Of a stretch of DNA of 64,000 nt, positions 51,586 through 54,834 are shown one piece after another. The translations under genes were made by a program, and so were the position numbers. The notes beneath the pieces were generated by a model, which searched no databases, was not told the DNA's origin, and worked only from the letters and a program-made list of their open reading frames with translations. Each line of letters begins with the position of its first letter. Within the stretch, counting starts at the first letter, position 1. The DNA is from Halobellus captivus (GTDB lineage Archaea; Halobacteriota; Halobacteria; Halobacteriales; Haloferacaceae). The stretch lies in NCBI RefSeq assembly GCF_003697845.1, contig NZ_RDQE01000013.1, positions 1 through 64,000 of the forward strand, written 5' to 3'.

Positions 51586-51649
51586 TGGGCTCGGGCGGGT
51601 TCGAACCTCACTCACTCCGCTCGCTTCGTTCCCTGCTTCGAACCCGCCC
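51586..51649. repeat. Duplicated tRNA-Val 3' end (att-like) with inverted copy
   Basis: The 22 bases at 51586-51607 are identical to 51696-51717, the 3' end of tRNA-Val including the discriminator base. A 13-bp inverted copy (TTCGAACCCGCCC) follows at 51637-51649 and can pair with 51593-51605. Duplicated tRNA 3' ends are footprints of tyrosine-integrase elements. Only 90 bp separates the copies, so this looks like a scar rather than the border of a present element. Confidence 0.7.
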
Positions 51650-51695
51650 TCGCATCACGTCGCCGTCGCTCGCGGATCGCTCGCGACAGCGACAG

Positions 51696-51769
51696 TGGGC
51701 TCGGGCGGGTTCGAACCGCCGACCTCAGCCTTGTAAAGGCCGCGTCATAACCAGCTAGACCACGAGCCC
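51696..51769 (-). tRNA. tRNA-Val(UAC)
   Basis: 74 nt on the minus strand. Acceptor GGGCTCG/CGAGCCC, D arm GTC..GAC, anticodon stem CGGCC/GGCTG (one G-U) around TTTACAA giving anticodon UAC (51733-51735), T arm GGCGG-TTCGAAC-CCGCC, discriminator A. CCA not encoded. Its promoter TTTTCC (minus) lies near 51797-51805. Confidence 0.93.
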
Positions 51770-51894
51770 CCGTCGAGGGAAGCCGCCGCGAGCGGAAAAC
51801 GGTTTCTACTCAACGTCGACAGAACTCGTAAGACCGCCCGAACGCCGTCCGATCAGCCTGCTACCGGCGTCTCGAGACACGGGGTGACGGCCTG

Positions 51895-52035
51895 ATGGCG
51901 GTCGCGTCCGGGCCGTTCTGCGGAGCGCTCGGCTGTCGCGACGAGGCCGACCACGTCATCCGCCTCGAGGACGGTCGCGAGCGTCCGACGTGTGCGTCGG
52001 ACGCTCGCGACGGGACGGTGATCCGCGATGTCTGA
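51895..52035 (+). CDS. Small Cys-containing viral protein (46 aa)
   Basis: MAVASGPFCGALGCRDEAD... then TCASDARDG: three or four Cys in a short ORF of the kind common in haloviruses as mini zinc fingers. Its stop overlaps the next start by 8 bp. Too short for a firm call. Confidence 0.4.
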   Translation: MAVASGPFCGALGCRDEADHVIRLEDGRERPTCASDARDGTVIRDV

Positions 52036-52531
52036 AGACGACATCTCCGCGCGTGACGCCCTCGCCGTCGCCCAGAGAGCGCTCGCTCGTGTCAACGACT
52101 TCGAAGAGCGGATAGATCAGCTCGAAGCGTCGCGTGGAGAGCTCCAGGAAGACCTCACCGCGGTGAAGCTCCGGCTCTCGGAGATCGACGAGGATCGTCC
52201 GTACGAATCGCTGTCGATCAACGAGAAGGTCGGCATGGTCCGCGAGCACGCGTTTCGGAAGGCGACCGACCGCAACGGACGCGCGAAGTTGGACTACGAC
52301 GACGTGATGTACGAGGTGTTCGACGGGAAGCCCGGATCGAAGCACTGCTACAAGCTCATCCGGCTCGCAGCGGGACTCGACGCAGACGAGAAGACCGGCG
52401 GGACGATCCCGGGGTTCACCGCTCGCGACCCCTCGAGCGGCAACTACCACCTCGCCGTCGACGCTGTCGAAGCCAAGCGCGGCGAGGTCTTTTTCCCGAG
52501 AACAAAACCCGACGGGGAGGGGGTGGCCTGA
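52028..52531 (+). CDS. Viral coiled-coil protein, unknown function
   Basis: 167 residues. N-terminal coiled coil (ALARVNDFEERIDQLEASRGELQEDLTAVKLRLSEID), then a helical domain (LSINEKVGMVREHAFRKATDRNGRAKLDYDDVMYEVFDGKPGSKHCYKLIRLAAGL) suggestive of a winged-helix or DNA-binding fold. First substantial gene of the provirus and directly before the candidate origin, so a replication-initiator or origin-binding role is possible. Its 3' end contains the left arm of the 18-bp inverted repeat. Confidence 0.7.
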   Translation: MSEDDISARDALAVAQRALARVNDFEERIDQLEASRGELQEDLTAVKLRLSEIDEDRPYESLSINEKVGMVREHAFRKATDRNGRAKLDYDDVMYEVFDGKPGSKHCYKLIRLAAGLDADEKTGGTIPGFTARDPSSGNYHLAVDAVEAKRGEVFFPRTKPDGEGVA

Positions 52532-52705
52532 GCATGCCCTCGTTCGCCCGCGGTATCCCACCTCCGTTGTACTGGATGAAGATCCCGTTGTAGATCAGTC
52601 TGTAAACAACTGTCCGCTAGCCGAGAGGCCGTCGTTTAGGCCGACGTTTGGCCGACGTCGACGGTCGCGGACAACGCCGCGGTGGCGTTTGTTCTCGGGA
52701 AAAAG
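52489..52705. other. Candidate viral replication origin, 18-bp inverted repeat upstream of mcm
   Basis: CTTTTTCCCGAGAACAAA (52489-52506) and its exact reverse complement (52688-52705) flank about 180 bp. The left arm is followed by a G-rich run (GACGGGGAGGGGG), as haloarchaeal origin-recognition boxes often are. Inside, an AT-richer stretch (GTAGATCAGTCTGTAAACAAC) and a direct repeat GGCCGACGT (twice) occur. Placement right before a replicative helicase supports an origin. This is inference; no Orc1/Cdc6 gene is seen in the window. Confidence 0.5.
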
Positions 52706-52713
52706 ACCACACG

Positions 52714-54834
52714 ATGTCCACCACCCACGACCGACGCAAGGAGACCGAGACACTGACCGAGACGCTGATCCGATTCATGCGGGAGCGGTGCCGTGACGAG
52801 CTCGGGACGCTCGCCCAGCGCTACCCGAATGAGCAGCGGTCGCTCGTCATCGACTACGACGAGCTCTACGAGTTCGACCACACGATCGCCGAGGACTACC
52901 TCGCGGAGCCCGAGCAGACACGTGAGTACTTCGAGGAGGCGCTCCGGCAGTACGACCTCCCGGCCGACGTGTCTCTCGATCGAGCTCACGTGCGCGTGGC
53001 GAACCTCCCGGCTGAGTACACGCACTATCCAGGGCACTTCAGTCCGACCAAGATTCACCGCGACGAGCCGTACATCAGCGTCGAGGGTGAGATCGTCGCG
53101 GCGAGCGACGTCCACCCGAAGGTGACAGAGACCGCGTTCGAGTGCAAGCGCTGCGGGACGAAGACCTACGTCCCGCAGACGGATCGTGGCTACCAGGAAC
53201 CACACGAGTGTCAGGGATGTGAGCGGCAAGGGCCGTTCCGCGTCAATTTCGAGGAGTCGGAGTTCATCGACGCCCAGAAGATCCGTCTCTCGGAGCCGCC
53301 GGAGGTCGCTGGCGGTGACGGGCAGACGATCGACATCTTCGTCGAGGATGACCTCGCCGGCGAGGTGACGACGGGAGACCGCGTCGCTATCACTGGACAC
53401 CTCCACCTCGAGCAGCGCACCAAAGGCAACGAGAAGAAGTCGACGTTCGAGCCGTATCTGAACGGCCACGCCATCGAGATCCAAGAGTCGGATCAGACGA
53501 CGGTCGAGGTCTCGCCGAGCGAGCGCGAGGAGATCGCCGACATCGTCGACGGCGAGCTGGGCGATCCTCTCGAGGTCGCTGCCCAGTCGATCGCGCCCGG
53601 TGTGTTCGGCGAGCAGTACGACCACATGAAGTGGGCGATCGTCCTCACCGTGGTCGGCGGCGACTGGGTCGAGGGGAAGGACGGGAGCGTCGAGCGTGGC
53701 TCAATCAGCATGCTCCTCGTGGGTGATCCGTCGACGGGGAAGTCCGCGCTGATCAACCAGGCCGAGTCGAACGCGCCGCGGGCCGTCGGTGTCTCAGGGA
53801 AGGGCGCTCGCGAGGCCGGCATCACCGCCTCGGCCGTCCGCGACGACTTCTCCGATGGTGAGTGGACACTCAAAGCGGGTGCGTTCGTGAAGGCGAACGG
53901 CGGGATCGTCCGGATCGACGAGCTCGACGACATGCCGCCGGACGTCCGGTCGGCGATGCTGGAGCCGATGGCGAACGGGAAGATCAACGTCTCGAAGGCC
54001 GGGATCAACGCGACGCTCCAGACGCGCGTCGGCGTCGTCGCCGCAGCCAACCCGAAGTATGGTCGGTTCGACCCGTACGAGCCGGTGGTCGAGCAGGTCG
54101 AGCTCGGCTCGACGCTCATCTCACGGTTCGACCTCGGGTTCACTGTCACCGAGACGGACGAGGTCGACACCGTCAAACAGGTCGCTCGGGACATCGTCGG
54201 CCGTCGCGAACACAAGAAGCGCCTCGACGTCGCCCCCGAGACGATCGAGCCGGGGGAGACCGACAAGTACGACCCGCCCGTACGCAGCGAACTCCTCCGG
54301 AAGTGGCTGGCACTCGCGAGCGATCAGCCGTCACCCGTCATCGCGAGCGAGGAGCTGGAGCAACGGATCGCCGACGAGTTCTCTGACTTCAAGACGAAGC
54401 ACATGGGCGAGGACGCGCCCGTCCCGGCGACGTGGCGCGACCTGGAGGCACAGCTCCGGCTCGCCGAGGCAGCCGCGAAACTGGAGTTCTCCGAGACGAT
54501 CGAGGAGCGGCACTTCAGGACGGCGCTCTCGCTGACGATGCGGTCGATGCGGGACTTCGGGATGAACGAGGACGGTGAGTTCGACGCCGACATGCGGGAG
54601 TCGGGGACGTCGAAGACCCAGCGTGACCGTATCACCGTGCTCGAGGACATCGTCGAAGAGCAGTGTGCTTCGGGCGACACCAACGGCACCGCTGTCGAGG
54701 ACGTCCTCGGGGAGGCAGAGGCCGAGGGGATCGACCGCAACCGGGCAGAGAAGACGCTCCGGAAGATCAAAGAAGAGATCGGGTCGCTGTACGAGCCGAC
54801 CGATGGGACGCTCAAGTGGCTCGGGAGGGCGTGA
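52714..54834 (+). CDS. mcm: MCM replicative helicase (viral)
   Basis: 706 residues from ATG 52714. N-terminal OB domain with zinc finger C144/C147/C166/C169 (CKRCG...CQGCE), then the AAA+ core: Walker A GDPSTGKSALI (337-347), Walker B RIDELDDM (400-407), sensor-1 VGVVAAANPKYGRFD, arginine finger in LISRFDLGF; a C-terminal winged-helix tail (VLEDIVEEQCASGDTNGTAVEDVLGEAEAEG). Full length for archaeal MCM, so probably active. It unwinds DNA 3'-5' at the viral origin. Confidence 0.95.
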   Translation: MSTTHDRRKETETLTETLIRFMRERCRDELGTLAQRYPNEQRSLVIDYDELYEFDHTIAEDYLAEPEQTREYFEEALRQYDLPADVSLDRAHVRVANLPAEYTHYPGHFSPTKIHRDEPYISVEGEIVAASDVHPKVTETAFECKRCGTKTYVPQTDRGYQEPHECQGCERQGPFRVNFEESEFIDAQKIRLSEPPEVAGGDGQTIDIFVEDDLAGEVTTGDRVAITGHLHLEQRTKGNEKKSTFEPYLNGHAIEIQESDQTTVEVSPSEREEIADIVDGELGDPLEVAAQSIAPGVFGEQYDHMKWAIVLTVVGGDWVEGKDGSVERGSISMLLVGDPSTGKSALINQAESNAPRAVGVSGKGAREAGITASAVRDDFSDGEWTLKAGAFVKANGGIVRIDELDDMPPDVRSAMLEPMANGKINVSKAGINATLQTRVGVVAAANPKYGRFDPYEPVVEQVELGSTLISRFDLGFTVTETDEVDTVKQVARDIVGRREHKKRLDVAPETIEPGETDKYDPPVRSELLRKWLALASDQPSPVIASEELEQRIADEFSDFKTKHMGEDAPVPATWRDLEAQLRLAEAAAKLEFSETIEERHFRTALSLTMRSMRDFGMNEDGEFDADMRESGTSKTQRDRITVLEDIVEEQCASGDTNGTAVEDVLGEAEAEGIDRNRAEKTLRKIKEEIGSLYEPTDGTLKWLGRA

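Follow-up and report, generated by a model that had tools for sequence, protein, structure and literature searches.

What is the role of an inverted repeat that stands directly in front of a helicase gene in an integrated haloarchaeal virus? A sequence-only reading of the 64,000 nucleotides from Halobellus captivus analysed here (the window) had described an 18-bp perfect inverted repeat before a viral mcm. The repeat is real and even longer, as its arms are perfectly complementary over 21 bp with a loop of 181 bp. The left arm GGTCTTTTTCCCGAGAACAAA (52486–52506, forward strand) lies within the 3' end of a gene of 167 codons that we call P167, and the right arm is an inverted, non-coding copy (52688–52708, reverse strand) that ends 5 bp short of the mcm ATG. 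Each arm is itself dyad-like. Allowing up to 3 mismatches, the window holds these two copies only and 100 dinucleotide shuffles gave none; the 17-bp arm core has, at up to 2 mismatches, one further site in the 3.6-Mb assembly (2 mismatches, on another contig).

The repeat belongs to an integrated tailed virus and sits close to its left end, and the terminase, portal and HNH genes come after it. A tRNA-Val (UAC) gene adjoins this end (51695–51769, reverse strand; ARAGORN, Rfam tRNA 64.5 bits), and the 14-bp sequence GGAAAACGGTTTCT at 51794–51807 recurs identically at 92605–92618 of the same contig, so that the two copies are probably attL and attR of the provirus; a tyrosine integrase, assigned by homology, lies at the right end beside attR. 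The 3' end of tRNA-Val is duplicated over 22 bp at a distance of 110 bp from the intact gene (51586–51607 and 51696–51717), with further inverted copies between the two stretches, and the duplicate may have been left behind by a previous integration event. Within the provirus a small gene (51895–52032, forward strand), detected by tblastn as a homologue of HrrHm1_275 from Humcor1 with 59% identity, is followed by the P167 gene (52028–52531, forward strand), whose product is predicted to consist of a coiled coil and a winged helix, belongs to PHROG 33103 and is our proposed binder of both arms. Just 5' of the P167 start, at 51974–52011, there is another perfect inverted repeat of 17 bp with a 4-nt loop, possibly a strong hairpin. 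The gene behind the right arm is indeed a viral mcm (52714–54834, forward strand), showing MCM_N, MCM_OB, P-loop and AAA-lid domains and an ATG at 52714. The genome around the window is of the Halorubrum type, with close matches in Hrr. coriense, Hrr. tebenquichense and Hrr. aidingense of that genus.

The interval between the arms had been called gene-poor, which holds in part only, since the P167 gene reaches into it and is followed by a conserved micro-ORF, MPSFARGIPPPLYWMKIPL (52534–52593, forward strand), that is translationally adjacent to the P167 stop and has Pro-Pro-Pro (PPP) at codons 9–11. The G-run that had been noticed near the left arm is present as GGGGAGGGGG (52514–52523, forward strand), but it represents the last P167 codons. 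It aligns with a conserved GGAGGTG before the micro-ORF start in the relatives and is the probable Shine-Dalgarno sequence of the micro-ORF; as no G-run is found at the right arm and only one arm is thus flanked, it is not the G-string of an origin recognition box (ORB). Downstream of the micro-ORF follow a conserved AT-richer core, TGTAAACAACTGTCCGCTAGC (52601–52621, forward strand), and then tandem direct repeats of 11–12 bp at 52627–52659 on the forward strand (GGCCGTCGTTTA / GGCCGACGTTT / GGCCGACGTC; GGCCGACGTTT type). The AT-richer centre and the internal direct repeats of the earlier reading are thereby both recovered, the former with 50% AT at 52560–52625 against 32% for the whole window.

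Using P167 searches over haloarchaeal families and requiring at least 15 of 21 matches between the arms, we compiled 41 distinct loci with this layout from haloarchaeal viruses, proviruses and plasmids. A single-sequence search of viral contigs with P167 gave no match, whereas the genome searches gave many. Position, spacing and symmetry of the repeat are kept in all 41 loci, Humcor1 and BJ1 among them, and the arm sequence differs by lineage, with TTTTTCCCGAGAACAAA in Humcor1 and Hrr. coriense, GTGTTTTCCGCCGGAAAAA in the Hrr. aidingense group, GTTTTCGTCCGCGAATAAA in BJ1 and Hrr. rubrum and GTTTTATTCCGCGAA in Halosimplex. Of the 40 loci for which the inner spacing was measured, 35 have 179, 181 or 183 bp and 38 fall within 178–183 bp, the two outliers (171 and 172 bp) being shorter by about one helical turn. 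The parts between the arms are conserved as well. At the P167 stop codon a micro-ORF of the MxxFxRGIPPP kind is present in every one of the 41 loci (mean in shuffles 0.2 of 41), with the start codon always at −4 to +2 nt of the stop and the three prolines at codons 9–11 in most; among 391 genomes searched with this pattern it occurs at this locus type only. The proline codons differ between loci at their third position but not at the first two, which is a coding signature. The core has the consensus tgTGTAag.Aa...tc.g.TAgc, the AT fraction across loci rises from about 0.38 to 0.58 in the central bins, and tandem repeats of 10–12 bp score at least 0.9 in 63% of the loci compared to 1% of shuffles.

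In some loci the cassette occurs without mcm, the next gene being a different HTH gene or a gene on the opposite strand, and in another one an McrB-like gene follows some 85 bp further on. Thus, the cassette is self-contained and not simply an operator of mcm. Conversely, the distant MCM-encoding haloviruses HATV-3, HSTV-1, HRTV-29, HFTV1 and BLv36 are devoid of this inverted repeat. The sequence-only reading had named a lack of conservation in related viruses as its refutation, and it survived this test. Viruses of the HJTV-4 type carry a distant P167 homologue, gp2 (E 6e-7), adjoining an inverted repeat whose arms differ (GGTGTTGCG type); a PPP micro-ORF is present there as well, and the core is similar. 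We had also considered HJTV-4 gp1 as a P167 equivalent with a swapped domain and dropped this idea, as gp2 is the distant homologue and gp1 shares the N-terminal motif only. Short upstream proteins with nothing but this motif (xxEDALQVAQRALAKV) are encoded in L036 (314–469), L073 (2115–2267) and L074 (2115–2270) as well as by HJTV-4 gp1, and they could be partners or competitors for the target of that helix.

P167 has no family match in Pfam or NCBIfam, and no AAA+ domain was found in it. AlphaFold2 predicts a long N-terminal helix (residues 7–53) followed by a winged helix with the recognition helix at residues 104–114 (SKHCYKLIRLA; codons 52337–52369, forward strand, placed by the model and by the column scan described below). 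The model is of moderate quality (mean pLDDT 75, pTM 0.58), with pLDDT values of 83–89 over most of residues 61–130. Foldseek detected nothing significant for the model in PDB or BFVD, and its winged-helix structural neighbours reach Z scores of up to 6.8. One of them is F-112 of SSV1 (PDB 2vqc), which matches residues 61–146 with Z 6.7 and an rmsd of 2.4 over 68 residues; a Z below 8 may reflect a common arrangement only, and no shared function is implied.

A winged-helix protein encoded next to dyad-like sites is an obvious candidate for their binder, and we looked for covariation between 126 P167 columns and the non-coding right arm only, corrected for overall protein identity. Residue 105, the second position of the predicted recognition helix, ranks top of all 126 columns (partial r 0.515; 99% maximum of the permutations 0.227; 0 of 1000) and residue 104 ranks third. 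The P167 columns between the helix and the arm score lower than residue 105, which argues against mere linkage. Helix and arm classes run parallel, as K105 is mostly found with AGAAC or AAACAA, N105 or S105 with CGGAA and D105, G105, A105 or M105 with G[CT]GAA, with the exception of L181, where K105 occurs with CGGAA. The comparison of single loci points in the same direction. Between the window and L049 the helix is 82% and the arms are 95% identical, against 48% for the rest of the DNA-binding region and 54% for MCM. Between the window and the Hrr. aidingense-type loci the rest of the DNA-binding region is 63–67% identical, the helix 55% and the arms 74–79%, and MCM is about 87–90% identical to that of their Halorubrum members. 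P167 of the window is thus overall nearer to the Hrr. aidingense type (63–67%) than to L049 (48%), yet its helix and arms go with L049, and it is possible that a short block carrying helix and arms has been exchanged together, although the weaker covariation of the columns between helix and arm speaks against this. In L049 the same left-arm DNA is read in another codon frame (FFPENK instead of FFPRTK), showing that the DNA is kept and not the peptide. A P167 tree built without the helix yields 2–3 phylogenetically independent contrasts per trait, none of them contrary and too few for significance on their own. As residue 105 best predicts the sequence of the right arm, we regard it as very probable that P167 binds both arms, and from these sequence data P167 rather than MCM is the likely arm binder.

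How would such a protein act at this place? The anatomy is origin-like, comprising paired inverted sites, an AT-richer core, tandem repeats and the gene of a replicative helicase, and the persistence of the whole cassette in loci where mcm does not follow also fits an origin. That the repeat might be a viral origin which loads its own MCM had been suggested before, and anatomy and conservation make an origin plausible, while the loci without mcm and the distant MCM-encoding haloviruses without the repeat limit that suggestion. Judging from sequence and conservation, the reading that we favour is a viral replication origin bound by P167 as its initiator, the odds for it being in our opinion even. 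P167 dimers, formed via the N-terminal coiled coil, would occupy both inverted sites about 200 bp apart from centre to centre and fix the geometry of the AT-richer core and the tandem repeats between them; as initiator P167 would then assist in melting the core and recruit the viral MCM, whose gene comes directly after the cassette. Physical binding, origin activity and MCM recruitment are what we infer from the computed sites, their fixed spacing and the covariation with the predicted fold, and the same applies to any role of the PPP micro-ORF, which might couple translation or ribosome pausing to the use of the cassette. Proline triplets are described as a ribosome-pausing motif that is relieved by aIF5A/EF-P in the available parts of PMC6105217 and PMC11611912, and by analogy the ribosome may pause at the PPP of the micro-ORF. 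The most far-reaching version, which we put forward tentatively and consider rather doubtful, is a kind of initiator-origin cassette not described before, shared by tailed viruses and plasmids of haloarchaea. In it P167 would recognise a pair of sites at fixed distance and change its site specificity mainly via one residue of the recognition helix, and translation of the enclosed, conserved polyproline micro-ORF, possibly with ribosomes stalling at PPP, would control the firing of the origin or the supply of helicase.

The GC skew, computed for Humcor1, BJ1, HJTV-4, the provirus of contig C5 and two plasmids, has no extremum that coincides with the inverted repeat and gives no clear indication for or against an origin. 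In Humcor1 the detrended minimum is located at orc1 (31.1 kb) and the repeat at 39.2 kb. The maximum lies 1.9–2.8 kb from the repeat in Humcor1, BJ1 and HJTV-4, which share a similar, mostly one-stranded gene order, and 37.5 kb from it in the circular Actinarchaeum element. Humcor1, BJ1 and HJTV-4 each have an orc1 gene of their own at another place, and this gene could specify a different origin; no obvious ORB-like pairs were seen by eye near the viral orc1 genes. On the contig of the window no Orc1/Cdc6 was detected by a TIGR02928 search of the assembly or with viral Orc1 queries. At 86.9–87.9 kb of contig C5 (L092) the provirus apparently lacks the orc1 of Humcor1 and BJ1, its gene order being otherwise related.

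Winged-helix proteins are often plain transcription factors, and P167 could also act as a repressor or activator, sitting on both sites, looping out the 200 bp between them and controlling mcm and perhaps its own operon. This would agree with the predicted fold, with the position of the right arm in what is probably the promoter region of mcm and with two outlier spacings that are off by about one helical turn. In most loci a few to about 25 bp separate the right arm from an ATG, and the arm often begins with a TTTATT-like sequence. However, arms, micro-ORF and core stay together also in front of other genes, whereas an operator of mcm should always be upstream of mcm; an operator of other genes is conceivable. 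The left site is placed inside the 3' end of the gene of the regulator itself, and a pair of operators needs neither a conserved core nor tandem repeats, so that we consider a looping operator, the main rival, possible but somewhat unlikely. A partition site is improbable. In this case P167 would be a segregation adaptor sitting on centromere-like arms for plasmid-like maintenance, for which its coiled coil and winged helix would be suitable and for which a ParA-like gene after mcm in L200 and the ParA and ParB genes of the Actinarchaeum element might be quoted, but in most loci read ParA is not adjacent, the locus of the window is an integrated provirus and linkage to mcm is far commoner than to parA.

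If the arms were recognition boxes for the host Orc1/Cdc6, this would account for two inverted repeats on either side of AT-richer DNA and for the single G-run close to the left arm. We regard this as very improbable, as an orc gene is neither adjacent nor present on the contig, the right arm has no G-string and viruses of the same host genus differ widely in their arm sequence, which follows the P167 helix instead. Even slightly less probable is a hairpin of RNA or single-stranded DNA, with the arms pairing in a transcript or as a cruciform. The single strand of the window does fold with z = −5.65 and the arms as a long stem, but good folding is expected of any perfect inverted repeat and the value is therefore circular. 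Among 93 arm-arm mismatches only 6 are G-U compatible compared to 23 of the A-C transition type, Rfam gave no match besides the tRNA, and each arm is dyad-like and tracks a P167 residue. The consensus fold of 22 loci shows no pairs either, an argument weakened by the alignment register, since MAFFT aligned the arms by codon frame and one column off. Finally, inverted repeats can flank invertible DNA, but in 41 of 41 loci the micro-ORF comes straight after the P167 stop and reads the same way, a second orientation was not found among them and the sequence of the right arm follows a DNA-binding residue of P167, which makes site-specific recombination exceedingly improbable.

With respect to known systems, the putative P167-bound origin resembles the haloarchaeal origins next to orc/cdc6 genes (PMC3528665, PMC3936714) in having inverted protein-binding repeats around an AT-rich stretch, in site sequences that go with the family of the DNA-binding protein encoded next to them and in diverse site types among relatives. 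Unlike there, the neighbour is P167 instead of Orc1/Cdc6, the two sites do not both have a G-string, the spacing is nearly fixed, and a conserved micro-ORF lies between the sites with usually a helicase gene behind them. We thus rejected its membership in the ORB origins, as inverted repeats do flank an AT-rich element but no adjacent orc and no paired G-strings are found. The closest relatives are the MCM loci of Humcor1 and BJ1 (Graaviviridae; PMC7911831, PMC2194725) with the same order of small gene, P167 and mcm and the same kind of inverted repeat, Humcor1 even having the arm core of the window; both also possess orc1, which was not found for the window provirus. As far as its text was available, the BJ1 paper (PMC2194725) lists inverted repeats without this one and proposes no origin here, and the accessible text of the Humcor1 paper (PMC7911831) mentions neither the repeat nor a relation of P167 to the arms nor the micro-ORF. 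The cassette is not mentioned in taxonomy and provirus surveys (PMC8651126, PMC11705971), and in the open-licence literature we found no prior description of it. In the pRN1-type replicon (orf56/orf904) a small DNA-binding protein is likewise encoded beside the gene of a replication enzyme, with nearby cis elements needed for replication, but according to the available part of PMC4234260 the small protein is described there as a transcriptional repressor, and no sequence relation is shown. The cassette therefore follows a known scheme, a linked binder and paired sites beside a replication gene, and the micro-ORF is its most unusual part.

No origin of an MCM-encoding halovirus is described in the literature searched, and the cassette offers a concrete candidate. 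With two short sites, one protein of 167 residues and one helicase, this candidate system bears on the question how a viral MCM is loaded, and the natural variants predict which P167 should bind which site. If the proposal is true, it would provide a minimal archaeal helicase-recruitment system that works without Orc1/Cdc6 or alongside it, and would reveal how a winged-helix family naturally encodes the recognition of its sites. A conserved polyproline micro-ORF of archaeal viruses has moreover been missed by annotation.

Some further observations concern the surroundings of mcm and P167 genes in other elements. One genome (G456:C1) contains three P167 loci (L131, L153, L155) with two helix and arm classes, of which L155 seems to have lost a recognisable inverted repeat. 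HATV-3, HSTV-1, BLv36, HRTV-29 and HFTV1 (L086–L090) encode an unrelated coiled-coil protein directly before mcm, in some of them with a start that by eye resembles a ribbon-helix-helix, and a DNA-binding coiled-coil partner ahead of mcm may be a general rule. In the Haloprofundus plasmid NZ_CP083668 (L117/L201, 30–36 kb) a P167-type cassette without mcm stands directly before an McrB-like AAA gene and mcrC. The circular element NZ_CP071309 (L203/L204, 84.9 kb), annotated as an Actinarchaeum plasmid, carries genes for tape measure, baseplate, ParA/ParB, Orc1, a P167-like protein and MCM, and by its appearance looks like a virus genome.
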